From the NCBI GenBank assembly GCA_949987705.1, contig OX465281.1, forward strand, positions 79,884,543 to 79,948,542: a stretch of 64,000 nt of DNA, read 5' to 3'. Positions within the stretch are counted from its first letter, which is position 1. Every line of letters starts with the position of its first letter. The stretch is from Thereva unica. Lineage: Eukaryota > Arthropoda > Insecta > Diptera > Therevidae. Under the pieces are notes generated by a model. It was given only the letters and a program-made list of their open reading frames with translations, did not search any database and was not told the origin of the DNA. The position numbers and the translations under genes were made by a program. Shown one piece after another: positions 9,049 to 57,420 of this stretch.

Positions 9049-12000
9049 TCATCATCATTGCGCTCCTTTAATCCCTTATGGGACATAGGGCGGAAACAGT
9101 TGCCCTCCAGCGGACTCTGTTTTGCGCGACAGCTCTCAGCTCCGACCAGGATCTCCCAGTTGTTGCGGCTTCTGCTAGTAGGATTCTCCTCCACATTGTT
9201 CTAGGTCTTCCGACTCGACGGGATCCTTGCGGATTACAGTCGAGGGCCTGTTTGGCTAGATTTTCGTTTTCACGTCGAAAGGTGTGGCAAACCCAATTCC
9301 ATTTCCTTCGTCTGATTTGGTCGTCTATCCTTTCTTGGCCGGCACGGCGCCATAGTTCTTCGTTTGAAATTCTATCCTGCCAGCGGATTTTTAGGATACG
9401 ACGCAGGCATCTGTTGATGAAGACTTGTAGGCGCCTTGATATGAATTGGGTGACTTTCCATGTTTCGCACGCGTACAAAAGAACTGCCTTAACGTTGAAG
9501 TTGAACAGCCGCAATTTGGTGCTAGCTGAGATCACCGTTGATCTCCATATGCGGAACAGGCATGCATATGCGCCTCGTGCTTTATTTATTCTGGAACCGA
9601 CATCTTCTTCTGCACCGCCATTTTCGATAATAATACCACCGAGGTAGCAGAATTTATCGACCAATTCCACGACACGGTTATTCAGCGCAGTCCGTTCAAT
9701 GGTGTTTGCATTTATCCGCATTTCTTTAGTGTTAGTTGGATTTAGCCTTAAGCCTGCTGAACTACTTTCTGTTGCCAAATTGTTCAACATGTTTTTGAGG
9801 TCCTGGTGTCTGTGGGCCAGCAAACAGACATCATCTGCGTAGTCGAGATCCTTAAGGCGGTCTAACGAACCCCATTGTATACCGCCTGTTCTACTATCTA
9901 GAGCGCCGACAAGGATGTCATTTATTACTATAAGAAATAGTAAAGGCGAGAGTAGGCATCCTTGTTGTACTCCTGAGCTCACCTCAAAGCTGTCGGAAAA
10001 TTTTCCATTATGGAGAACTCTGCATTTGGAATTGTTATAGGGCTTTTATCAATTCTATTATTTTATCAGGCAGTCCACGTCGCCGTAGTGCCTGCCATAT
10101 AAAGCCCCTATTGACCGAGTCGAACGCTTTCTCATAATCTACGAAAGCAAGGTAAAGGGGGATCGGAATTCAGTAGACTGCTCCACTATTATTCGTAATG
10201 TGTTTATATGATCAGATCAACACATGAGCGGCCCTTCCTGAATCCGGCCTGCTGCCTCCTAAGCGTTCGGTCTACTGCCTCACTTATCCTAGATAGTAAT
10301 ATATGGGACAAAATTTTGCCCACAGTAGATAGTAAACAGATGCCTCTCCAGTTGTCGCATATTGTTAGGTCCCCCTTTTTTGGTATTTTGACTATGATAC
10401 CTTCCGTCCAATCCTCCGGAAAGGTACAGGTGTTCCATGCTATTTCCAGGATTGGCTGAAGCGCATCTGCTATGAGGCTTAAATCGGCTTTCAACAATTC
10501 TGGCGGGATGCCATCTTTTCCAGCTGCTTTACCAGTGGCCATCGCATGAATTGCGGTTACTATTTCCGTCATGGATGGGGCCCGGGTGGTGATTCTTATT
10601 GGCTCTGCATTGTTGCTGGTTTCCTGAGGTTCCTGTGTAAATGAACCATTCAGGGCGACGAAGAAGTAATCTCTCCATCTTTGGAGCTGCTCCTCGTCGC
10701 TGCACAGCAGCCTTCCATCCGCACTCTTAACGTCATGCTTTTTAGTAGAGTGCTTTCCCGTGAGCTGTTTAGTAATTTGGTACAGCACCTTACTGTTGCC
10801 TGTGTTTGCCGCGTTTTCCGCTTTTTCTGCGAGCTCATTAATCTGCTGCCTTTTATTACGCCGGACACTTCTCTTTAACTCCCGGTGTAATTGGGAGTAT
10901 TCCCTTTCCAGTTGGTAACGTCGTTCAGGGTCGCTTGTAGAGTTTACGTTATTTTTTAGGGCTCTCCTGCGTTCTATTTTTTGCCAGGTTATGTCCGAGA
11001 TCCAGTGTTGCTGGTTTCTTTGGACATAACCGATGCTCGTTTCCGCAGCCGTCAATATTGCGCCCTTTGTCCTATTCCACAATTTGGGTCGTCAGAAACG
11101 TTGTGCTGGTTTAATATTTGTTGTAGGTTTCCAGCAAATTCCCGCTTTTTAACGCTCTCCCGCAGAAGATCTACGTTGAACCGTCTACGGTTTATAGCAT
11201 CGCGTTGTACGTTTCTGATTGCGGCGATTTTAAGGCGAATAGTTGCTACTACCAAGTGGTGGTCGCTTCCGGTGTCTGCTCCCCTGAAACTCCTGGCATC
11301 CTCAAGGATAGTTCTCCATCTGCGGCTGACGGCCACATGATCTATCTGATTTCTCGTTCTACCATCGGGCGATACCCAGGTCTCTTTGTGTATCTTCTTG
11401 TGACAAAAGTAAGTTCCACCTACCATGAGTTGGTGGGAGCTACAGAAGTCAACGAAAAGCTCACCATTGTTATTGGTAACTTGGCTTAGACCTTGATTTC
11501 CAATTGTTTGTTCAAGGCCGGGGTTGTCACGGCCGATTTGTGCGTTTAAGTCACCCATTAATACAATGATGTCTCCCCTTGGAATAGAGCGAAAAACCTC
11601 ATTCAGCCGCAAATAGAACTCGTCTTTGATGTCATCTTCAGCGTCTTCATTTAGAGCATAGCATTGGACTACCGTAGTACTTCTTAGTCTGGTACACAGG
11701 CGCACGGTAATAATCCTCTCAGAAACTGGTGACCTGCTAATGAGGCTGGACCTGGCTTCTTTGGTGAGTATTACGCCAACGCCACTACTACGGCTTTCAG
11801 TTTCGTTTCTACCAGAATATAAGAAGGACTCACCGTTTGGGCAGATATGTTCCCCCGCATCGGGCCATCTGGTCTCACGATCTTGATTTTATATCGATTC
11901 ATCTCGTTGAGGACTTCATCCAGCCGTCCCTCGGCCAGCAGTGTTCTCACATTCCATGATCCGATTCGTGTCCTTGTTCGAAAAGCAAAGGTCGTCGTCG

Positions 12001-16169: not shown

Positions 16170-18020
16170 ATGGGTGTTTCCACGAAAATCCGGCAACTCT
16201 GTGTCCGCAGCACTCCCCACTTGTTATAGTTCATATTATTTTATTTTAAGATTGCAAAATATGTTGTATTTATTCCTCAAATTGTGTTTAAAATAATAAT
16301 ACACTATACTCTTGAAATCATATTTATTGACCCCGAATGTCATTCCCTAGCCATGTCCGTGCACCGAAATTTTGTGTTTGGGCATCCATATTTCGAAAAA
16401 AAATAATTTATACTTTAATTTTCTTTACTATTATTCAATATTTAAGTATTTACAACTTATTTCATCATTTTTTGTAATTTAAAAAAACAATAAATGTGTT
16501 TCCTAAGGTCGCAATTAGTGTCCTCAATTTTAATCATCAGATTAAAACGGATTTTAAAATTTCGACATTACATGACTGTAGAGTGAATGCAATCCAATTA
16601 ATTTTAAAGAAGAAGATGAAACTATTCGTCTTCTCTATTCAAAGCTGCACTCCCTCAAAGTCTAGAAATTAACAAGTCTTTCATCTTCATATGGTTAATG
16701 AGTGAAAGGCGAACAACTGCATGCACAAGTTTTTCAAATGACGATGTCAGGCTATCAGAGAGAGAATGCAACATTTTTATACGCGCTGGAATATAACCAT
16801 AAGTCGGAAAATTTTATGAGTTTATATGGGGATGTATTGGTGCATATTTGCTCGTTTGTTTTGATGACTTCAATTTTGACAGCTGATTCAATTGTCTTTC
16901 CTTTTCTGGTCTGCATACTTGATCGAAGAGAGAGAACTGCCTTTGTCTGGCCGAGTTCACGAAGTATGCGTTGAGTTTTGCTCAGCAGTGATGTTCATAT
17001 ATGCACGCACACAATCAACGGTCGGAAATTTTTGTATGAAGATGAAAGACTTGTTATTACTAGACTTTGCACTCCCTTTGCAACGGCCATTTTGTTTATC
17101 AGAGCAGAGCGTCAGTTGCTGTGCAATCTTGTGTTGATCCAGTCAACTTGTCAGTCCCTAGCCAAGTAATTTTATAGTTTAATAATAGGAAATTGACTTT
17201 AATTAATTAGTATTTACAAGTGATTTACCGGCCTTGCTCGGAAGATAGAGTTAGATGTCGTAGTATAGTGGTCGAACAGTATTTTTTGGTAGTTTTACTC
17301 AGAATCGTCAGCCCCTGAACCGTCAAGTCAAGCCCTAGTTGTGAATGCTACTAGAGACCGACGGGAGTGGTCAGGGGCTTTCTCATAAAATACTACATAA
17401 AGTGACTGGGCGCTTTAGGTATTATAAAATGAATTAACCACGCATTATATACCTACACTATTAGGAAATGCAATAGCATCTTAAATATACTGAAGACATA
17501 TGGGTCATTCCAGCCATAATCGGCCGGAAAATGCACGACCGCCCAGAAAATTAGTAAAAACATTTTTTTCATGTTTCAAAAAAACAAAATTTTGATTTAA
17601 AAAGTCAGTATGTTAAAATAGTTTCAATAACCCACGCTGAAAATTTGTACGATGATAGTTCGCAAACTCAAGAACTTTGTGTTAAAATTTCAGCCAAATC
17701 GAAGATGGTGGTTTTGAGAAATTAATTTTTGAAATTTTTCCGATTTTTTTTGTTGTTTTTGCTGTCATTGAAAAAAGTTCAAGGTCAAACATTGTAATAT
17801 GACAATTTTCTGGAAGAGTGGATATCAGGCTACAAAACCACTATTTTCTAACTTTTTTGTATGATAATTACGCATTGTTTTGTACATGTTTTTTTATCGC
17901 GAGAAACATGAAAAAATGTTTTTACTAATTTTCTGGGCGGTCGTGCATTTTCCGGCCGATTATGGCTGGAATGACCCATATTACTTTCAAAAGTGTCCCT
18001 AATTTTGTGGAAACACCCAT
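16170..18020. mobile_element. 1.85-kb TIR element with 9-bp TSD
   Basis: The ends ATGGGTGTTTCCAC (16170) and GTGGAAACACCCAT (ending 18020) are perfect 14-bp inverted repeats, extending imperfectly to about 18 bp. ATATGGTAT directly precedes (16161-16169) and follows (18021-18029), a 9-bp TSD. That size is typical of Mutator-like elements and possible for Merlin. No transposase is visible; the open frames near 16702-17140 show no known domain. A smaller element is nested at 17501-17978. Confidence 0.75.
17501..17978. mobile_element. 478-bp foldback MITE, about 80-bp TIRs, TA TSD
   Basis: TGGGTCATTCCAGCCATAAT at 17501 is mirrored at the right end (17978). The arms stay paired for about 78-80 bp with one length difference in a T-run. 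TA lies on both outer sides, the Tc1/mariner target. The interior has no gene. It sits inside the 9-bp-TSD element and shares its first bases TGGGT. Confidence 0.8.
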
Positions 18021-18141
18021 ATATGGTATATATGGCAAAAAACCCATGCGCCGGCGCTGATCGCATACACTTCCCACAGTCCTTTTCTGCTTTCGCGGTG
18101 TGTAAAACTCCAGGCCATCACATAAATAACTTGTACCTATG

Positions 18142-18181
18142 CACAGTGTTTCGCCTAGAACAAGCTAGGTGGACAAAAGTC
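18142..18181 (+). repeat. Transib left TIR with RSS-like layout
   Basis: CACAGTG, then 23 bp, then GACAAAAGT. Heptamer, 23-bp spacer and A-rich nonamer-like word is the layout described for Transib ends and 23-RSS. Confidence 0.8.
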
Positions 18182-18418
18182 ATTGTCAGATTTCCAGAAA
18201 TGAGTAATTAGGTAAAGAAAATAACACATTTGAACCCCCAAATTCAATAAATGTTTGTGTATCACTCTTCAATGTGATGAGTCATAGTGTGAAGAAGTCA
18301 GCTAAAGCGGAAGACTACTGATATAAGTGTAAGTGGACTATTTCACTTGCATTTCTGTAATCATTGCAACAACACATCGTATGATTGACAGTAAGTTATT
18401 TTGTGGAAAGTTTTAGTG

Positions 18419-20735
18419 ATGGATATTATATTTGAAGGTAAGTGCTAATTTTTTAAAATGCGGCTACAAAAATGCAAAGGAAGATTTCAAAAAGATGTTA
18501 AAACACGTGTTCGTTTTTCTTAGTTTTGTAACTTCCATGGACTGGCAAATACCTGCCAACGCCTGCCAACGGTCTAGATTTTGTATATTATTTAGCTACA
18601 GCGTTCATATTTATTTCTATATATGTTTCATCGAGCAGACTTTTTTTGCAGAACATCTTCATTCCATTTCAAGAATGGAGTTTTTTGAAGAATGGGCAAA
18701 AAAGGAAAAAATCAAAGAAACATCCATCTTTATAACTACGTTTCAGCAAAATTTGATTTACGTTACTGAGGACTCTAAGAGGCAAATAAAGAATATTTTC
18801 GCTGCTTATTCTTCGAAAATTGCTACCAAATGGAATGCTGCGGGAAAATCAAAGGAACAGTTTTTAACTACAAATCACAGCTGGTTGGATGCGGAGGAAA
18901 TACAATTTCGGGTGTGTACGGCCCAGCCACGTCCATCAACTTCATGTAAAAATCTTACTCCTGCAGGAAGACCAAGAAAGGATTTCGAGCATTCGTCATT
19001 CAAAACCAAAAAACGCCGAGTTGATGACCTCGTTAAATAGCGTAGTGTTGGTGAATTAATGACCGCTGCAGAAGTTTCTGTGCGATCAGCAGGAAATCGA
19101 AAAATAGCAAAAGTGATAAAAAACATTAGTGAAAGCTCAAAAAACGCAAATGTACCAACCAGTTCTCACAACAATAATTCTTTCGAGAGTTCTAGTCAGT
19201 TAAGTGGTGATGAAGCATTAGTGTATTATATTGACTCTAAATCGACAACACACAGCTATAAGCAAACTAGGAAGTGGTCTATGAAGGCAGGCCATTACGA
19301 GTATCCATCTTATCATTGTTTGCGTAAATCAAAAATTGCGTGTTATCCTCCCGAGGAGCACATTGAGATAACAGAGACTAGAGTTGAAATTCATTTACAA
19401 GCTATTTTAGATAAAACCGTTGAGCGATTACTGCAAGCACAGAGTGAAGTCATAAAAAATTTGCTTCCTAATTCATCGTTTAGGCTCATACATAAATGGG
19501 GTTGTGACGGAAGTGGTGGACACAGTGCGTACAAGCAGAAATTTGAAAACAGCGAGGATACTGACGAGTTTCTATTCGTATTTTCATTTGTTCCTCTTAG
19601 ATTACTCCAAGGTAAAAATATCATTTGGCAAAATCCTCGACCATCATCTACAATGTTTTGTCGTCCGATTAAATTCATTTTTGCAAAGGAAACAACTGAA
19701 CTAACGAAAACAGAAACTAACAAAGTTTTGGGACAAATAGACAATTTACTGCCGTCAATTTGTATCTTTGGCGATTCTCAAATCTCTGTCAAGCATGAAC
19801 TTCTACTGACAATGACTGACGGAAAAGTGTGTAACGCGTTGACTGATACTCGTTCAGCACAGAAGTGTTTCATTTGTGGTGCTACCCCTAACATGATGAA
19901 CGAGATATCAGCGAATTTTGACAGCGACCTTGATAATTTTGGCTTTGGTTTGTCTACACTTCATGCTTGGATACGTTGCTTTGAATGTTTACTACACATT
20001 AGTTATAAACTGGATATAAAAAAATGGCAGGCTCGAAGTAATGATGATAAGGCGCATGTAAAACAGCGATCGGAAGCCATTCGACTAAAATTCAAGCAAG
20101 AAATGGGTCTCATTGTGGACAAACCAAAGCCAGAATTTGGTTCAAGTAATGACGGTAACACTGCTCGCCGTTTTTTTGGGAACCCTGAATTAAGTGCTCA
20201 AATCACAGGATTGGATGTTACACTAATTAAGCAATTTGACGTTTTGCTGAGAACATTGTCGTCTGGTTTTGAGATAAATTTAGTTGAATTCAATAAGCTT
20301 TGTCTTGACACCAGACGACTTTATATCAGTCTCTATTCGTGGTATTACATGCCTGCTACTGTTCATAAAATATTGATCCACAGTACACCGGTCATCAAAA
20401 CTGCTCTTGTTCCAATTGGGCAGCTTTCGGAAGAGGCCCAGGAAGCTAGAAACAAAGATTGCCGAAGATTCCGCGAACACAACGCCAGAAAGTGCTCACG
20501 TATTGCCACGAATAGAGACTTACTCTCCATGTTGCTTGTCACATCTGATCCACTGATCAATAGCCTCCGAGAGGTTCCCAAAAAGAAAGCGGATAAATTA
20601 CCTGTAGAAGTGTTAAAGCTTTTAGTTGCTCCTACTATAGATCCTCGAACATCTGTGCCTACGGTAGTTTCCCAATACGAAGAAGACTATTATTTATATG
20701 ATACAACGGACGACTCCGATGACGAGGGGGATTAA
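18419..20735 (+). CDS. Transib transposase (RAG1-like), one internal stop, predicted intron
   Basis: A six-codon first exon (ATG at 18419) meets a GTAAGT donor at 18438. The acceptor TTTTTTTGCAG ends at 18651 and keeps the frame. An unspliced start at Met 18675 is the alternative. The frame then runs to TAA at 20733-20735, about 700 codons, except for one TAG at 19038-19040. Homology-like wording continues across it, so I read it as a nonsense change. Counted from Met 19059, the first catalytic Asp lies in WGCDGSGGHSAYKQ (D150). A CxxC finger is in QKCFICGATP (about 269-278). The last catalytic Glu should lie in SEEAQEARNKDCRRFR (about 457-472), which parallels the SEGNESGNKLFRRFR region around E962 of RAG1. 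The middle Asp I could not assign safely. Role: cut-and-paste DDE transposase, nuclear. Confidence 0.93.
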
Positions 20736-21106
20736 TAATAGTCAAATTACCTTTTTTATTACTTTTTGTTTTGAAATATGTTTTTTGTTATTAACTCTCG
20801 TTGATACATTTACGGACTTTATTAGTTTTTATTTTTATGTTTCTCTGTGTAAATAATTTTAAAATATTTTGTAATTAACTTACCTTTTTGTAATTCAGTA
20901 TTTTTTTTTTTATTGATTTTTGTGCAAAATATAATATGTTTATGTGAAAGTTCTGTGTATTATAAACTTGCCCCATATTTTTTCCTAATTATTATAAAAT
21001 ATGTCTGAAAACATCACAATAATACTTAAAGAACGTAATAAAATCCAGAAACATCAAAAAATAATTTTTTCCAGCTAGCTTGTTCTAGGCGAAACACTGT
21101 GCTATG

Positions 21107-22381: not shown

Positions 22382-23075
22382 CCTAGCAAACCAATCTTTA
22401 AGATAACTTAACGAATTCGTTACGGAAATTGGTATATTTTTCCCGAATTCGCAATAGAATTCTGAACAAATTCGGAAAGAAAAATATATGAAGAGGTTGA
22501 CACGACATCGTTAAAGAAATTCTTTTCGAAATCGTTACGAAATTTAGTAATGATTTAGCAAAGCTTTTTACCCCGAAGCTTCACATTCATATAGGCCATT
22601 TACTTTACTAAATTTCGTAACGATTTCGAAAAGAATTCTTTAACGATGTCGTGTCAACCCCTTCATATATTTTTCTTTCCGAATTTGTTCAGAATTCTAT
22701 TGCGAATTCGGGAAAAATATACGAATTTCTGTAACTCTTAAATGGAATTGAAACAATTATTATTACTTTGCTATTTAAAAAACACACTTTTAAAAAATAC
22801 TCACAAAAATACAACAAACTTTAATTTCACAATAATGCACTTGCGCACTTCACTTTGACACACGATGTAAGTTAAGACAAGTGTTCCGATTTCTGGCCTA
22901 CTTCGTTAAGAAAATTTGTCACCGGCTTCGTCGTGACATTGTTGCGAAATTGTTTTCCGAATTCTTTTCGATTTAGTTTCGACTAATCGCCACATAAAAA
23001 GCTTTAGTTTTTGTTGTTGTATTGCTTTCGAAAATCTTTCGACTTGTAGGAATTCGGAAAGTTTGGTTTGCTGGG
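22382..23075. mobile_element. 694-bp TIR element splitting a LINE fragment
   Basis: CCTAGCAAACCAATCTTT at 22382 mirrors AAAGTTTGGTTTGCTGGG ending 23075 (16 of 18 positions). The flanking LINE sequence continues on both sides in the order seen at 39430-39500, which confirms an insertion. The TSD is short (2-4 bp, CA or GGCA). The interior holds a large palindrome (22419-22735) and no gene. Confidence 0.7.
22419..22735. repeat. Near-perfect palindrome, about 131-bp arms
   Basis: 22419-22550 and 22605-22735 pair with only a handful of differences around a 54-bp loop. The sequence is rich in GAATTCG and CGTTACGAAAT words. It lies inside the 694-bp TIR element and could form a long hairpin. Confidence 0.85.
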
Positions 23076-48856: not shown

Positions 48857-51800
48857 TATATGAAAAAACCAAGCTTAGGTGTAACCCTTTGTACTACCAG
48901 TCCGTTATGTCGTTCAGTTCATGGTGCAATGTCTAGTAGTAGCTTGGTTTGAAGAATAGGGGAGAATAGGAAAGGTTAGAGGGGGCCTGGAGGGTGTAGA
49001 AGAAAATGACGATGAACCTCACGTTTGAACTCTAAGATGTTGTACGAGTTCGGAAATACCGACTGCGGGAGATCATTCCACAATCGAGTTGTTCTATTCA
49101 TAAACGAACCTCTGAACCGTATTGTGCGTGAACGAGGGGGCTGTAGGGTATGGGGGTGAGCCGAGCGGGCTAGTCTTGTGTTGCGGGAAAAGTATTGCCG
49201 TGCAGGCAGGAGGTCCTGAATTTCGGTGGAACAGTCGCCATGGTAATAGCGATAAAGTACGGAGAGGGCTGCTACATTCCTACGGTGGCTCAAGGTGTCT
49301 ATGGAGGCGCGAAAGGGGCCATCACCAATGAGTTTGAGGGCACGATTTTGCACCTTGTCGAGACAAGCCAAGGTGGTTTTTGGGGCGCCTGCCCAGATAT
49401 GTGAGTTGTATTCGAGGCGCGGCCGAATGTAGGATTTGTATATTGTAGCCAATGCGGCTGGCTGGAGGAGGAACTTGCATCTCTTGAGAAATCCAAGGCA
49501 TTGGGAGGCTTGTTTGTAGATTTGGAATATGTGATCGTTCCATCGCAGATGCTCCGTTAAAGTTACCCCTAGGATGTTGAGAGTTGAGTCAGCCGTTAGA
49601 TTCTCTCCATCCACCGAGACAGGAGGAAGGTCGGTACAATTTTTGTTGGAGATCAGACAGTGCTTCGTTTTTGTGGCATTGAATTCGACGCGGTTCATTT
49701 CGCCCCAATGAAGAATCGATTTGATATCCCGGTTGATCGAAGCCGACATCAGTTGACGGTGGTAAAGACAAGGTCTGGCACGTGCTTGTCTTATATTGTC
49801 GAAGGAGTAAGAGAAATTCAGAGTACCGTCATCAGCGAAGCAGTGAAGTGGGTTGGAGGGGATTGAGAGCAGATCATTAATGAAGATTAGAAAAAGTGCA
49901 GGTGAAAGAATTGACCCCTGAGGAACTCCGGCCGAAATGGCGTGGGGGTTGGATTCGACGCCATCCAATACTACCTTGATTGAACGGCATGAAAGAAAGC
50001 TCTTAATCCAGTTCCTTAGAACTAAGTGTATACCAATAGCTTGGAGTTTATTCAACAGAGCTGGGTGCCATACTCTGTCAAAAGCCTTTGATATATCTAG
50101 AGCAACTAGGCTAGACTCACCAAAGCTGTGAATGCTTTGGTTGATACGCTCGGTTAAACACACAAGCAGGTCGCCAGTAGACCGTTTAGATCTGAAGCCG
50201 TATTGCCTGTCGTGTATAATTTGGTTGGATTCTAGATATTTCATCAGCCTTTTATTGATTATTGTCTCCATGATTTTGGAGAGAACAGAAGTAATTGCTA
50301 TTGGGCGGTAGTTTAAGGGGTCGCTGGCTTCACCTTTTTTTGGGATTGGCTGAACATGAGCTAGTTTCCAAGAGTCGGGATACACTCCGGAGAAGTAAGA
50401 CAGGGCAAAAAGTTTGCGCAGAGGTTTAGCCAAAGGTGAGGCACATTTTTTAAGTACCATAGGGGGGATTTTGTCGGGACCAGTGGATTTGTTGGCGTTG
50501 AGTTCTTTGAGACACCTAAACACCTCGCGAGTCCTGAAGTGAACTCCGTCCATTGAGTGGGTGGTATTCTCGAGAGTGGGGGGTGACATAGCAGCATCGG
50601 GTAAAGAAGAATTTGCGGCGAACAGAGAAGCTAATATGTCGGCCTTGGGTTTGCTTTCTGTTATCACTTCCTTGTTATGAATAAAAGGAGGTGTTGAGGA
50701 GGAAGTAAAATTCTTCTTGATGGCAGTTACCAAGGACCAGAAGTTTTTGCTGCCTGTAGTGGAGTTAAGAATCTTACTTCTCAATCTATCATCAAATGAT
50801 GATTTGACTTTCCTGATGATGGAGTTACAGGAGTTTCTAAGTTTGACGTACTCACGACGAAGTGGCTCATTAGGCGAACGTCTGTATGCTCTATAGGCGG
50901 CTTCTTTAGCTTTGATTGCGTTCATACATTCCCCATTGAACCATTTGTTCGGCCTAGGCTTCACAGATTTGGTAGAGTGAGGGATGAACAAGCGCATACC
51001 CGCTCGAATAATTTTGGTGACACAGAGGGCCGCATAGTTCGCATTGGCACTACGGAAACACAAATCCCAGTCAGTGGCCTGGAAGAAGCGAATAAGACCC
51101 AACCAGTTGGCTTTCCCATAGTGCCACACAGTTCTTTTAGGAGCTGTGGTGGTTGTGGTCGAGGATGGATATGGGAAATAAGCGCTAATTAGTTTATGGT
51201 CCAAGTTGCCAAGGGGTGAGCTAACTTTGATGGAGTACCGCGTCGGGTGGGAAGTAAGAAACAGGTCAAGGAGATGGGCTCCTTGACCTGGAATATCAGG
51301 GACTCTCGTCGGACATTTGACAATTTGGTGCAAGTTGTTGAGGCTCGCAAAGAGCTCGGCGTCTTTGCCAGGAACACTGGTGCCATTTGAGTAATTTAGC
51401 CAATGTACATTGTGAACGTTGAAATCACCCGCAACAATGATTTCGCTTTCCGGGTGGGAAAATAAAAATCCGGAAATCTGTTCAGAAATAGCATCGAAGC
51501 CTGAGGTGGTGGCCTCATTACTAATATTAGGACTCCTATATAAAAAACAGAAAAATATGACGTGGCTATGGATAATTATTTTAATCCAAAGATGATTAAA
51601 ATCAGATGTACTACTGTACACCTTCTGAAAGGCCACGTCATTCCTAATATATATGGCTAATCCCCTATGGGCGGAAAAGTTGTGCACTAAATTATACCCT
51701 GTCACCTGAAATCGATCTAAATCAAGATCTGGTAACACTTGGGTTTCACTCAGTGCGAAAATAGCAGGGGTATGGAGGAGTAACTCGCACGTAACGGCCA

Positions 51801-52100
51801 GGAAGTTCGCATTCAGTCCCCGAATGTTACAAAAATTGATTATAAAATCATTGTCACTTTGGGGACTGTTTAGCGTGAGGTCCATGATCTCATTTGTTTT
51901 TCTGTTGATACGTTTGGCAACACATTCCGTCGCCGATTTCAATTTTAGAAGTTTGTTCAAACGGTGACTTCGACTTCGCGGCGCAGTTGTAATTTCGATA
52001 AGGCCGATGGCCAAAGAGAGCGCCGCACCGAGATCTGGCACTCAAACAGGTGCTTGTCTTTTTAAAACCTCAGTAGGTATATGGAACAATGTCCAATGAG
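48822..52100 (-). mobile_element. LINE, near full-length, poly(A) tail
   Basis: On the - strand the element ends with TAGTACAAAGGGTTACACC, AAGCTTGG, TTTTTTCATATATAT and then A32 (48853-48822). One long protein frame occupies 52041-48976. I could not fix the 5' end or TSD. No ORF1 is seen upstream, so the 5' end is either truncated or lies just beyond 52041. Its tail family also occurs at 47305, 62814 and 63855 and on the SINEs. Confidence 0.88.
48976..52041 (-). CDS. LINE endonuclease-reverse transcriptase, 1,021 aa, intact
   Basis: There is no stop from Met (52041) to the terminal stop (48978-48976). Endonuclease signatures: FCNIRGLNANF (about 70), ALSETQ, AGDFNVHNVHW (about 203-213), LLDLFLTSHP and NLDHKLI. 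Reverse transcriptase: PIPKKGEASDPLNYRPIAIT, QYGFRSKRST, VALDISKAFDRVW (about 645), GVPQGSILSPALFLIFINDL and CFADDGTLN (about 734). The C-terminus is of the YIRPRLEYNSHIW...LWNDLPQSVF type without RNase H. This is a CR1/jockey-like protein that nicks target DNA and primes cDNA there. The length is normal for such an ORF2. Intactness suggests recent activity. Confidence 0.95.
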   Translation of the reverse strand: MPDLGAALSLAIGLIEITTAPRSRSHRLNKLLKLKSATECVAKRINRKTNEIMDLTLNSPQSDNDFIINFCNIRGLNANFLAVTCELLLHTPAIFALSETQVLPDLDLDRFQVTGYNLVHNFSAHRGLAIYIRNDVAFQKVYSSTSDFNHLWIKIIIHSHVIFFCFLYRSPNISNEATTSGFDAISEQISGFLFSHPESEIIVAGDFNVHNVHWLNYSNGTSVPGKDAELFASLNNLHQIVKCPTRVPDIPGQGAHLLDLFLTSHPTRYSIKVSSPLGNLDHKLISAYFPYPSSTTTTTAPKRTVWHYGKANWLGLIRFFQATDWDLCFRSANANYAALCVTKIIRAGMRLFIPHSTKSVKPRPNKWFNGECMNAIKAKEAAYRAYRRSPNEPLRREYVKLRNSCNSIIRKVKSSFDDRLRSKILNSTTGSKNFWSLVTAIKKNFTSSSTPPFIHNKEVITESKPKADILASLFAANSSLPDAAMSPPTLENTTHSMDGVHFRTREVFRCLKELNANKSTGPDKIPPMVLKKCASPLAKPLRKLFALSYFSGVYPDSWKLAHVQPIPKKGEASDPLNYRPIAITSVLSKIMETIINKRLMKYLESNQIIHDRQYGFRSKRSTGDLLVCLTERINQSIHSFGESSLVALDISKAFDRVWHPALLNKLQAIGIHLVLRNWIKSFLSCRSIKVVLDGVESNPHAISAGVPQGSILSPALFLIFINDLLSIPSNPLHCFADDGTLNFSYSFDNIRQARARPCLYHRQLMSASINRDIKSILHWGEMNRVEFNATKTKHCLISNKNCTDLPPVSVDGENLTADSTLNILGVTLTEHLRWNDHIFQIYKQASQCLGFLKRCKFLLQPAALATIYKSYIRPRLEYNSHIWAGAPKTTLACLDKVQNRALKLIGDGPFRASIDTLSHRRNVAALSVLYRYYHGDCSTEIQDLLPARQYFSRNTRLARSAHPHTLQPPRSRTIRFRGSFMNRTTRLWNDLPQSVFPNSYNILEFKREVHRHFLLHPPGPL

Positions 52101-54100: not shown

Positions 54101-56965
54101 TCAGGCCATTTCAAGCCATTTTGAGCTTTTAATAAAGCGACAGAGTCTAGAGACACCAATATTTTGCAGCTCGCTCAATCCGTCAAGGAAAGGTGAGCCA
54201 AGTAGAGTCCCTCTTTTCCTTGCTAGGGCGGGACATGTGCAGAGAAGATGGGAGACAGTTTCTTCCTCTTCTTCATTACCACAACTTCTACATAAGTCGT
54301 TGTGGGGGAGTCCTAATCTTTCGGCGTGTGGGCCAAAGGGACAGTGACCAGTCAGCACCCTTACCACGTGGCTTATCTCCTTTTTGTTCAACTGAACCAG
54401 AGATTTTGAACGCTTTGCGTCCAAAGTTGGCCACATTGCATGAAGAGTGCGACAAACCGTTGCTGTGGTCCATCTCAGCCCGGCTCGAGCTAAGCTGATT
54501 TTACTCACAGCTAGTTTATAGGTGGCTAAGGGCATTCCCATTCGGGTTAAGTGGGGTGTCCTTTCCACTTCGGTTCCCTGTCTAGCAAGCTCATCTGCCC
54601 TACAGTTTCCCCTAATCCCACTGTGTCCAGGAACCCAACACAGTGTTATATCAAACTGAGTGGCAGTCTCACACAGAGACCTGCGGCAGTTCAGAAGAGT
54701 CGTGGATGTTGTGACGACAGAATTAAGAGCCTTGAGGGCCGCCTGGCTATCCGATAGAATACATATCGTCGCTTATCCAGAATAGTGCTACAACTCAAAA
54801 ATTTCCAATTTCGAGTTTATTTCAAGAATGTATAGCTAATTACGCATATTTTTATGTAGCAAAAATCCATATTAATACTTCTAAAAATGACCGCTGGAAA
54901 CCCGCTGGAATCCAAGATCATAACATGGGCTTGTATGAAACTAAAAACTTTCAAATGGCTCCCCTGTAAAATTCATTGTTTTTGAGTTGTGACACTATTC
55001 TGGATAAGCGACGATATATTCTTATGAGATATATTATTTATCTTCAGCCATTCGAGAGCCTCCCAGATCGCAGTGACTTCCGCTTGGAAGACGCTGCAGT
55101 GGTCGGGTAGACGAAGAGAGGTATTTATATTTAATGCCTCGGAAAAGATACCAGAGCCTACATTATTCCCAATTTTTGAGCCATCTGTGAAAATACATAA
55201 TGACCCAGTTGGGATAACACCATCTGTCCAGTCATCTCTGGCCGGAATGATGGTATTGAAACCTTTCTCCAAGGTCCACGTAGGTGTAGTATAATCTAGG
55301 TTGTTCGCAGTGGTGGCGAATTTCCTAAGGATGGATGAATGGCCATATGAGTATGGAGTCCATCCAAGAGAAGCCTTTGTCCTGGCAGCCGTCCAGGCTG
55401 CCATTTGCTCGGCGTGTATATCCAAAGGGGTAATATGCAATAAGACATCCAGCGCAGCTGTAGGGGTGCTTCTCATTGCACCACTGATACACAGCTCAGC
55501 TGTTCTTTGGACCCTTTCCAGTATATGGCGATACGTAATCTTCTGTAATGCAGTCCACCATACCGATATGCCATGCATAAGTATAAGTCTGATTACGGCT
55601 GTATAGAGCCAGTGGACGATGCGGGGTTTAAGGCCCCAGTTGACTCCGATCGTTTTCTGGCATAGGAAGAGAGCGGTTTTGGCCTTATTTGCTCTTTCTA
55701 TAAGATTCGGTCTCCACGTTAGTTTCCTATCGAGTATGAGACCTAGAAATTTCGCATCCTCCTTTATATGCAGTGTTTCATTACAGAGTCTTAAAGGAGG
55801 AAAATTGGGAAGTCTATGCTTCTTTGTAAAGAGCACTACTTCAGTCTTGGTTGGGTTGACGCCTAGACCCTTTGTAGTGGCCCAATGAGAAAGAGTATTC
55901 AATGCTTGTTGCATTATATCTCTTATTGTTGAGATATACTTGCCGGTCACCACCAGCACAATATCATCAGCATAGGCCACCGTGGTGCACCCAGACTCCT
56001 TTAGAGTTATCAATACTTCATTGACTGTCATATTCCAAAGGAGCGGCGATAAGACCCCACCTTGGGGTGTGCCTCTTTTAACGCGTCTGACTTCTTCCGA
56101 AAGCCCCAGGCTAGACTTTATGACCCTGCACCCTAGCAACTGATCAATAAAGGACCTGGAGCACCCATCAACATTCAGACGCTGGAGTGCCCTCGTGACC
56201 GCAGAGGGTTCAACATTGTTGAAAGCACCTTCAATATCTAAGAAAGCAGCCAACGTGAATTCCTTGAATTCAAGGGATCTTTCAATGACCGCTACCAAAG
56301 AGTGGAGAGCAGTGTCTACTGATTTACCTTTCGTGTAGGCATGCTGCGAGGGAGAAAGCAGTTTTTTATCAATGCTTTGCTTAACATGGATCTCCACAAG
56401 TCTTTCTAGTATCTTGAGGAGAAAGGATGTGAGACATATAGGTCTCAAGTCTTTTGGATTGTGGTAGGAGATTTTACCCGCTTTCGGAATGAAAGCTACC
56501 TTCGCTACTCTCCAGGATGTTGGAATGTAGCTTAGGCTAAGGGAGCTCCTATAGATGGCTGCGAGCCAATTCAGAATTAGGTCACTGACTTTCTGAATTT
56601 CAATGGGATAAATTCCATCTGGTCCCGGTGTTTTATAAGGCATGAAGCGTTCTATGGACCACAGGAGTAAATCTCTGTTTATCAATCTGTCAATGGTGCC
56701 TAAATTATGTGTGCTAGCTGGGCCCTCAAAACCTGTTTCTGCAGATGCAGCAAGAGATGTTGAGCCAGGAAAGTGAGTATCGAGTAGGAGTTTCAATGAC
56801 TCCTGACTGCTTGTGATCCATGTACCGTCTGCTTGTTGCAGCATTTCTTGGCACATTGGGCTTTTCGAGAGAACTTTTCTCATTCTTGCGGCATCCGAAA
56901 AACCTTCTATTGTCGCACAAAAGGTTTTCCAGGATTCCCTTTTTGAGTTTCGCAGTTCGTATTTG
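54101..56965 (-). pseudogene. Reverse transcriptase-RNase H polyprotein, MITE-interrupted
   Basis: The frame is open upstream of Met 56883 (WKTFCATIEGFSDAARMRKV) to about 56965. RT motifs: AFIPKAGK, AYTKGKSVDTA, AAFLDIEGAFNNV (about residue 218 from Met 56883), RGTPQGGVLSPLLWN and AYADDIVLV (about 304). RNase H starts FTDGSK (about 568) and QAEVTAIWEALEW. The MITE follows at NI, and beyond it the frame resumes CILSDSQAALKAL, CWVPGHSGIRGNCRADELAR. The end has GHCPFGPHAERLG and CRSCGNEEEEETVSHLLCTC. Removing the MITE and one ATAT rejoins the RNase H frame, so the copy was coding-competent when hit. Only the 5' truncation predates it. Confidence 0.92.
54767..55013. mobile_element. 247-bp MITE in RNase H domain, 4-bp TSD
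   Basis: CGTCGCTTATCCAGAATAGT at 54767 is mirrored exactly at 55013. Pairing continues through ACAACTCAAAAA with a small change. ATAT flanks both sides (54763-54766, 55014-55017). The reading frame of the host LINE supports a 4-bp TSD. Superfamily unassigned. Confidence 0.88.
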
Positions 56966-56975
56966 AACGATATTT

Positions 56976-57420
56976 TATGTTACTTGTTGGTAAATGACTC
57001 CATAAAATAATTTTATGGAACCATGACAGAATACGATTTTTAAAATATTTTATTTTTATTTTATGAAGAAGAAATTTTATCACGAAAAAATAACCTAAAA
57101 TATTTTTTCCGAGTTTAAATTGCTGCAGCAATTTTAATACTTTTGCTGTAGACTCTGCTTTGCTGCCAAGAAGACCACAGAAATTTACTATGCCTTGCTT
57201 TACAGCAATCATATTTTCAATCATCTTGCTGCTGGCTGTGAAAGCTTTTTTGTTTCAGTTTGCTGCGTATGCTGCTGCTTACAAATAAATGCTTGAGCAT
57301 GCTGCTTCGGCTACGAATGCTTCACATGCACATACAAAAAAAGTTTTCAAGTTTTATAAAGTTGGAGCATGAAAAAAAACCTGAAAGAAGGAAAGCTTTG
57401 GAGAGGAATGTTTTGAAAAA
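56976..57420. other. Non-coding interval
   Basis: About 440 bp rich in GCTGC/GCAGC words (57118-57310). No gene or TIR that I recognise. Confidence 0.45.

Follow-up and report, generated by a model that had tools for sequence, protein, structure and literature searches.

The 64,000-nucleotide stretch of Thereva unica DNA analysed here (the window) contains, at positions 18142-21101, a 2,960-bp Transib with both ends present and a spliced RAG1-like transposase gene inside. The question raised by this locus is whether the copy can still give rise to a transposase; a preliminary description had taken it for a rare, near-intact and possibly very young element, blocked at a single codon. Our analysis indicates that it is very probably one copy of a cut-and-paste family whose intact copies encode a spliced, 702-residue transposase, and that this particular copy inserted and then decayed. 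Most likely, the transposase gene is dead while the ends around it are still mobilisable, and the genome probably harbours live Transibs. The anatomy of the element, its homology, the sister copies, the private lesions and the independent insertions were all observed directly.

The window copy and its sisters

The element is bounded by terminal inverted repeats (TIRs) of 37 nt each (18142-18178 on the plus strand and 21065-21101 on the minus strand), which are complementary at 35 of 37 positions, and it is flanked on both sides by the target site duplication (TSD) CTATG, read directly at 18137-18141 and 21102-21106 (plus strand). It is thus a complete Transib, and its TIRs and TSD are as originally described. 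Both ends start with CACAGTG, which resembles the heptamer of the recombination signal sequence, and the window contains exactly two occurrences of the 27-nt TIR core (0 expected from 100 shuffles). A single DDE transposase, CACAGTG at the start of the TIRs and a 5-bp TSD (GC-rich when pooled over families), all of them Transib criteria, were found together. The gene lies on the plus strand: a 19-nt exon 1 (18419-18437), encoding MDIIFE plus one base, is followed by a phase-1 intron recognised by sequence comparison (GTAAGT...TTTTTTTGCAG, 18438-18651) and by exon 2 (18652-20735), assigned to the transposase by homology to HzTransib and RAG1. The exons join in phase, and a TAG in exon 2 (19038-19040) is the sole internal stop of the joined frame.

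A search of the host genome (910 Mb, 930 contigs) gave at least 104 DNA matches to the element (40 of 205 first-look candidates scored), of which 16 stretches were fetched. Two of these, L009 (contig C3, 129364156-129367125; 2,970 bp; TSD CGTAG) and L010 (C2, 14383693-14386660; 2,968 bp; TSD CCATG), are full length, and their spliced frame is predicted to run uninterrupted for 702 residues, the two proteins differing at four; the functional-looking sisters that had been anticipated elsewhere in the genome are therefore present. All or nearly all of the element was also found in L011, L014, L015 and L012/L013 (the last split by an insert of about 8.7 kb), but these copies are interrupted. A perfect 5-nt TSD accompanies 12 of the 13 copies of the group with both ends. 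Older relatives of the window element, with about 74-87% DNA identity, occur as fragments (e.g. G000:C1:211828507-211829227).

Seven of the fetched copies (L016-L022) are internally deleted. Their breakpoints, in element positions, are 615/1591 in L016 and L019, 615/1589 in L018 and 617/1614 in L017, while L020, L021 and L022 have the right breakpoint 2399 in common; moreover, an insert of about 120 nt is common to L018 and L019. Perfect TSDs, all different, flank six of the seven copies (in L021, one of the two ends could not be recognised). Since copies lacking the gene appear to have multiplied at new targets, the transposase was probably supplied in trans.

The TAG is private to the window copy. 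Reading this codon in the genomic copies, as the preliminary description had suggested, revealed a sense codon in all eight sisters that fully cover it (L009, L010, L011, L012/L013, L014, L015, L020 and L022), so the stop is not common to the family. The TAG is the only visible stop, yet it is not the only lesion, contrary to what had been thought. Lesions were read from pairwise comparison with the sisters plus an alignment of six sequences (high-scoring segment pairs spanning less than about 40 nt were dropped here and in the comparison of private substitutions, and L024 was left out of the tree). One nucleotide is missing at 18706 relative to 13 sister copies, and 5 nt are missing at 18761-18763 relative to 10. 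These private deletions cancel, and between them (18706-18763, plus strand) about 56 nt, or some 18 codons, are translated out of frame, with no stop, into residues no longer like those of the intact sisters. The frame therefore merely looks intact. In addition, compared with 14 sister copies, the intron is shorter by 12-15 nt at about 18640 and the leader lacks 3 nt at 18343.

The window copy also carries the most private substitutions of all full-length copies, namely 21 in 2,960 sites (0.71%), 20 of which fall outside the TAG and are spread over the element. The other full-length copies have 2-15 (L009, 3; L010, 5; L011, 2; L012, 2; L014, 7; L015, 15), although such a count drops if a close sister has been sampled, which favours L009, L010, L012, L011 and L014. 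The window copy diverges from each other full-length copy by 1.19-1.29%, compared with 0.17% between L009 and L012 and 0.34% between L009 and L010. It is consequently not a very young copy, and the term fits its sisters instead.

These observations are compatible with the following course of events. In intact copies, mRNA splicing would join the 19-nt first coding exon to one long second exon, yielding the 702-residue transposase. Judging from its homology to HzTransib, this protein would pair the two heptamer-tipped ends and, by analogy, nick and hairpin the flank through its DDE RNase-H site; insertion into a target preferring C-R-N-Y-G would then duplicate 5 bp. The window copy would have inserted in this manner and subsequently decayed, through the TAG in the region resembling a nonamer-binding domain (NBD), the cancelling N-terminal deletions, the intron deletion of about 13 nt and the 3-nt leader deletion. 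Such a copy would produce no normal full-length transposase, while retaining the ends needed for mobilisation in trans.

The 19-nt first exon

The preliminary description had linked a six-codon exon in frame across the intron, and comparative evidence lends support to this structure. The arrangement ATG...G/GTAAGT (the slash marks the join) is kept in all six sister copies inspected (L009, L010, L011, L014, L015 and L020). Outside the host genome, the Spodoptera exigua gene model P0035 (98% to P0001) reads MDFTSE/EKLYSINK at the join, with extra residues upstream, and the Leguminivora model P0040 reads MDLITE/EHVLSISRR at the same join, both models being gene predictions. In several unspliced relatives from genomic contigs a Phe-rich stretch runs straight into the post-acceptor residue (e.g. 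FSFFS/EKLYSINK in P0001).

The exon was then sought in other Transibs of the same genome, for which 34 further loci, together with L009/L010, were grouped into 16 nucleotide clusters (families). The exon-length test (ATG, 16 nt and GTRNG upstream of the GRP motif) was applicable to 15 families, and the 19-nt exon with its donor was present in eight (L009, L025, L035, L036, L038, L045, L049 and L055). Other ATG-donor spacings between 4 and 60 nt occurred in at most four families, mostly 0-2, and mononucleotide shuffles gave a mean of 1.0 and a maximum of 4 (200 shuffles). The test omitted L027, where the GRP motif was not found, and the tested region missed the exon of L037; on direct inspection both carry it, which brings the total to 10 of 16 families. 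A looser pattern without the donor consensus, tried on five families, matched L041 (donor GTATTT) and, less convincingly, L031, and was unmatched in L032, L033 and L052 (the element start of L048 was not found). Five of the 16 families (L031, L032, L033, L048 and L051) are without a convincing 19-nt first exon.

A pyrimidine-rich acceptor in the matching phase, near the conserved N-terminus, was found in 9 of 15 families (L009, L035, L036, L037, L038, L041, L048, L049 and L055), two of which (L038 and L041) list acceptors in another phase as well. The scan of these 15 families listed six acceptors in mixed phases for L033, one in another phase for L031, one followed by a stop for L045, and none for L025, L032 and L051. 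The acceptor side therefore varies more than the donor side. Exon-1 peptides differ between families (MDIIFE, MDCSRK, MNLEAK, MESLSG, MDLSEA, MELSLE, MDPIKI, MDLDKA, MAGTNN and MDFQGK), and it is the length and phase of the exon that are conserved. Unspliced translation from its ATG stops after 8-62 codons in the nine families read, as would also be expected by chance in AT-rich DNA.

Given this recurrence in Transib families and in the moth gene models, the six-codon exon appears well supported. The accessible text of PMC4411706, PMC9435367, PMC7204232, PMC11844651, PMC6941560, PMC1852546 and PMC10299278 makes no mention of a 19-nt exon, nor did open-access searches return one (the 2005 Transib paper lay outside their scope). 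We tentatively suggest that insect Transibs might have in common an ancestral 19-nt first coding exon of constrained length and a phase-1 intron acting as a splicing gate, so that transposase would be made only where the intron is removed. A comparable gate is provided in the P element by its third intron.

Relatives of the transposase and alternative readings

The frame following the TAG matches HzTransib of Helicoverpa zea (PDB 6pqn) with an E value of 4.1e-120 (405 bits over 464 residues), and RAG1 chains with a best E value of 6.2e-06. HzTransib (6pqn, 6pqx) resembles the window element in its transposase core and DDE triad, and its fold is like that predicted for the relative P0001. Its element, as described in the available part of PMC1852546, has TIRs and a 5-bp TSD, is longer than that of the window (3,518 versus 2,960 bp) and encodes a deduced protein of 489 residues. 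Among the best 120 of the 1,003 protein relatives found, the catalytic residues (all on the plus strand; HzTransib numbering after the accessible text of PMC6941560) are conserved as follows: the first Asp (19506-19508; D126) in 118, the second Asp (19818-19820; D225) in 117 and the Glu (20442-20444; E436) in 117. The best three relatives covering at least 90% of the protein (P0001, P0002 and P0004) show 70-73% identity over 90-98% of it, and those with a readable species name among the best 120 are insects (e.g. Spodoptera, Eurosta, Leguminivora, Sitophilus, Gryllus and Osmia). The moth and other Transib proteins (Spodoptera, Leguminivora, Eurosta; P0001, P0002, P0004) belong to the same family and have the same acceptor position; all come from other species and are known as proteins only, and the moth gene models share the six-codon exon with the window element. 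No match to the transposase was obtained in a tblastn search of phages, and a scan of IMG/VR with an alignment of 37 proteins gave 30 pattern matches and 0 confirmed ones.

RAG1 and the P0001 model are 17-20% identical in structural alignment. RAGL/ProtoRAG elements differ from the window element in carrying a RAG2-like second gene, for which no frame in the latter is long enough: the longest other frame, in the absence of a RAG2 profile search, has 128 codons and is antisense to the transposase, and a RAGL (RAG1L-RAG2L) element was rejected on this basis.

The TAG lies 24 codons past the start of the GRP motif (18966-18974, plus strand; G in 113, R in 112 and P in 110 of the best 120 relatives), where the NBD-like region begins; according to the portion of PMC9435367 available, this region is the equivalent of the RAG1 NBD. 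In the PDB alignments listed for the full-length P0001 model, 3 of 50 rows place it on the RAG1 NBD (root-mean-square deviation 7.6-9.7) and none reaches model residues 1-117. It is conceivable, albeit improbable, that translation starts at the next in-frame ATG after the TAG (19059-19061, plus strand; its use is putative) and yields a 558-residue transposase which lacks the GRP/NBD-like region and retains everything present in the active HzTransib protein. As D126 corresponds to residue 292 here, the studied HzTransib protein begins near residue 167, beyond both the TAG (136) and Met 143; the solved chains align only from residue 194 of the P0001 model onward, and the deduced HzTransib protein is just 489 residues long (PMC1852546, as available). 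The solved protein is thus without some 170 N-terminal residues which the window family encodes. However, conservation of GRP and the surrounding residues in at least 110 of the best 120 relatives suggests that natural elements require the region, the full frame is preserved in the intact sisters, and an ATG located 142 codons into the main frame would require reinitiation or leaky scanning.

If there were no functional intron, the protein would start at the exon 2 Met (RMEFFEEW) and the exon-1 match would be due to chance. Exon 2 is indeed open through this Met, the records of at least 10 relatives begin at the matching one, and some families lack a convincing exon 1. We nevertheless rejected an intronless gene as very unlikely, because seven relatives with sequence further upstream (P0001, P0005, P0007, P0012, P0022, P0024 and P0026) have I, N, T, R or L in place of this Met, the moth models show the six-codon peptide at the same join (MDFTSE/E and MDLITE/E), and the 19-nt length recurs in 8 of 15 families against at most four for any other length. 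There is equally little to recommend the view that the TAG and the small deletions are assembly errors in a copy which is really intact: they are private to the window copy, and two occur within or next to short A or T runs or repeats, but the 21 private substitutions, 20 of them away from the TAG, are those expected of an older copy.

Several points weigh against our preferred interpretation, that of a spliced Transib which inserted and decayed. Some of the private lesions could be errors of assembly, and L015, with both ends present, is without an exact 5-nt duplication. A nonamer-like element at 23/24-nt spacing is a Transib trait; here the likeness is weak (7/9 at the 5' end and 5/9 at the 3' end, spacer 24 nt), and a score of 7/9 is reached by 210 of 63,991 9-mers on the plus strand of the window. 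Finally, we infer splicing, expression, enzymatic activity and the mobility of the window copy in trans from sequence.

Transibs and other repeats of the host genome

The window contains further repeats. An inverted repeat lies just to the left of the Transib (17493-17986), its 76-nt arms being 97% complementary and separated by 342 nt, and another lies at 22419-22735, with 107-nt arms that are 94% complementary and separated by 103 nt. On the minus strand, an open frame of 1,021 codons (48976-52041) carries endonuclease and reverse transcriptase domains and represents an element like a long interspersed nuclear element (LINE). Three adjoining frames with the same domains (9068-11888) are probably one decayed LINE-like element, and two frames encoding reverse transcriptase and RNase H domains (54101-56979) probably one broken one.

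The expectation that a near-intact Transib would be rare was not borne out. With the transposase as query, at least 79 matches were scored in the host genome (77 of 2,087 first-look candidates scored), and 46 of the 79 have a stop-free open frame of 600 codons or more (hand count, excluding a 47th row, a partial match beside a stop-containing row). The 34 loci fetched from these 79 rows (L025-L058), picked mainly for long open frames and family spread, contributed to a sample of no fewer than 16 Transib families from a single genome. In 12 of the 16, at least two copies were fetched, whose longest aligned stretches are 97.4-99.9% identical; some of these may be haplotype or segmental duplicates. 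Many near-identical family copies are located on different chromosomes with different TSDs. The 35 pooled TSDs (12 from the window-element group and 23 from other families) are 71% GC, with the consensus C-R-N-Y-G (C1 in 24, G/A2 in 31, C/T4 in 30 and G5 in 28). The TIR finder prefers perfect TSDs, which biases the 23 perfect cases out of 25, and 9 of the 34 loci had no acceptable TIR call. Taken as sequence evidence, the copies point to Transibs that are probably live. Living Transibs as such are not new, since natural insertions restricted to a single strain have been documented in Drosophila melanogaster (PMC10299278, in the part available).

To conclude, the window element is a real, ordinary, partly decayed Transib, and of more interest are the many young Transib families that this single genome holds and the repeated occurrence of a 19-nt first exon. 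If the proposed splicing gate is real, it would constitute a general control point of a transposon superfamily related to RAG1, and a common 19-nt first exon would account for the frequently missing N-termini of annotated Transib proteins. The sole solved Transib protein is without the N-terminal NBD-like region, which the families of this genome often keep in full frames. For the transposon from which V(D)J recombination derives, active Transibs offer the best living proxies.
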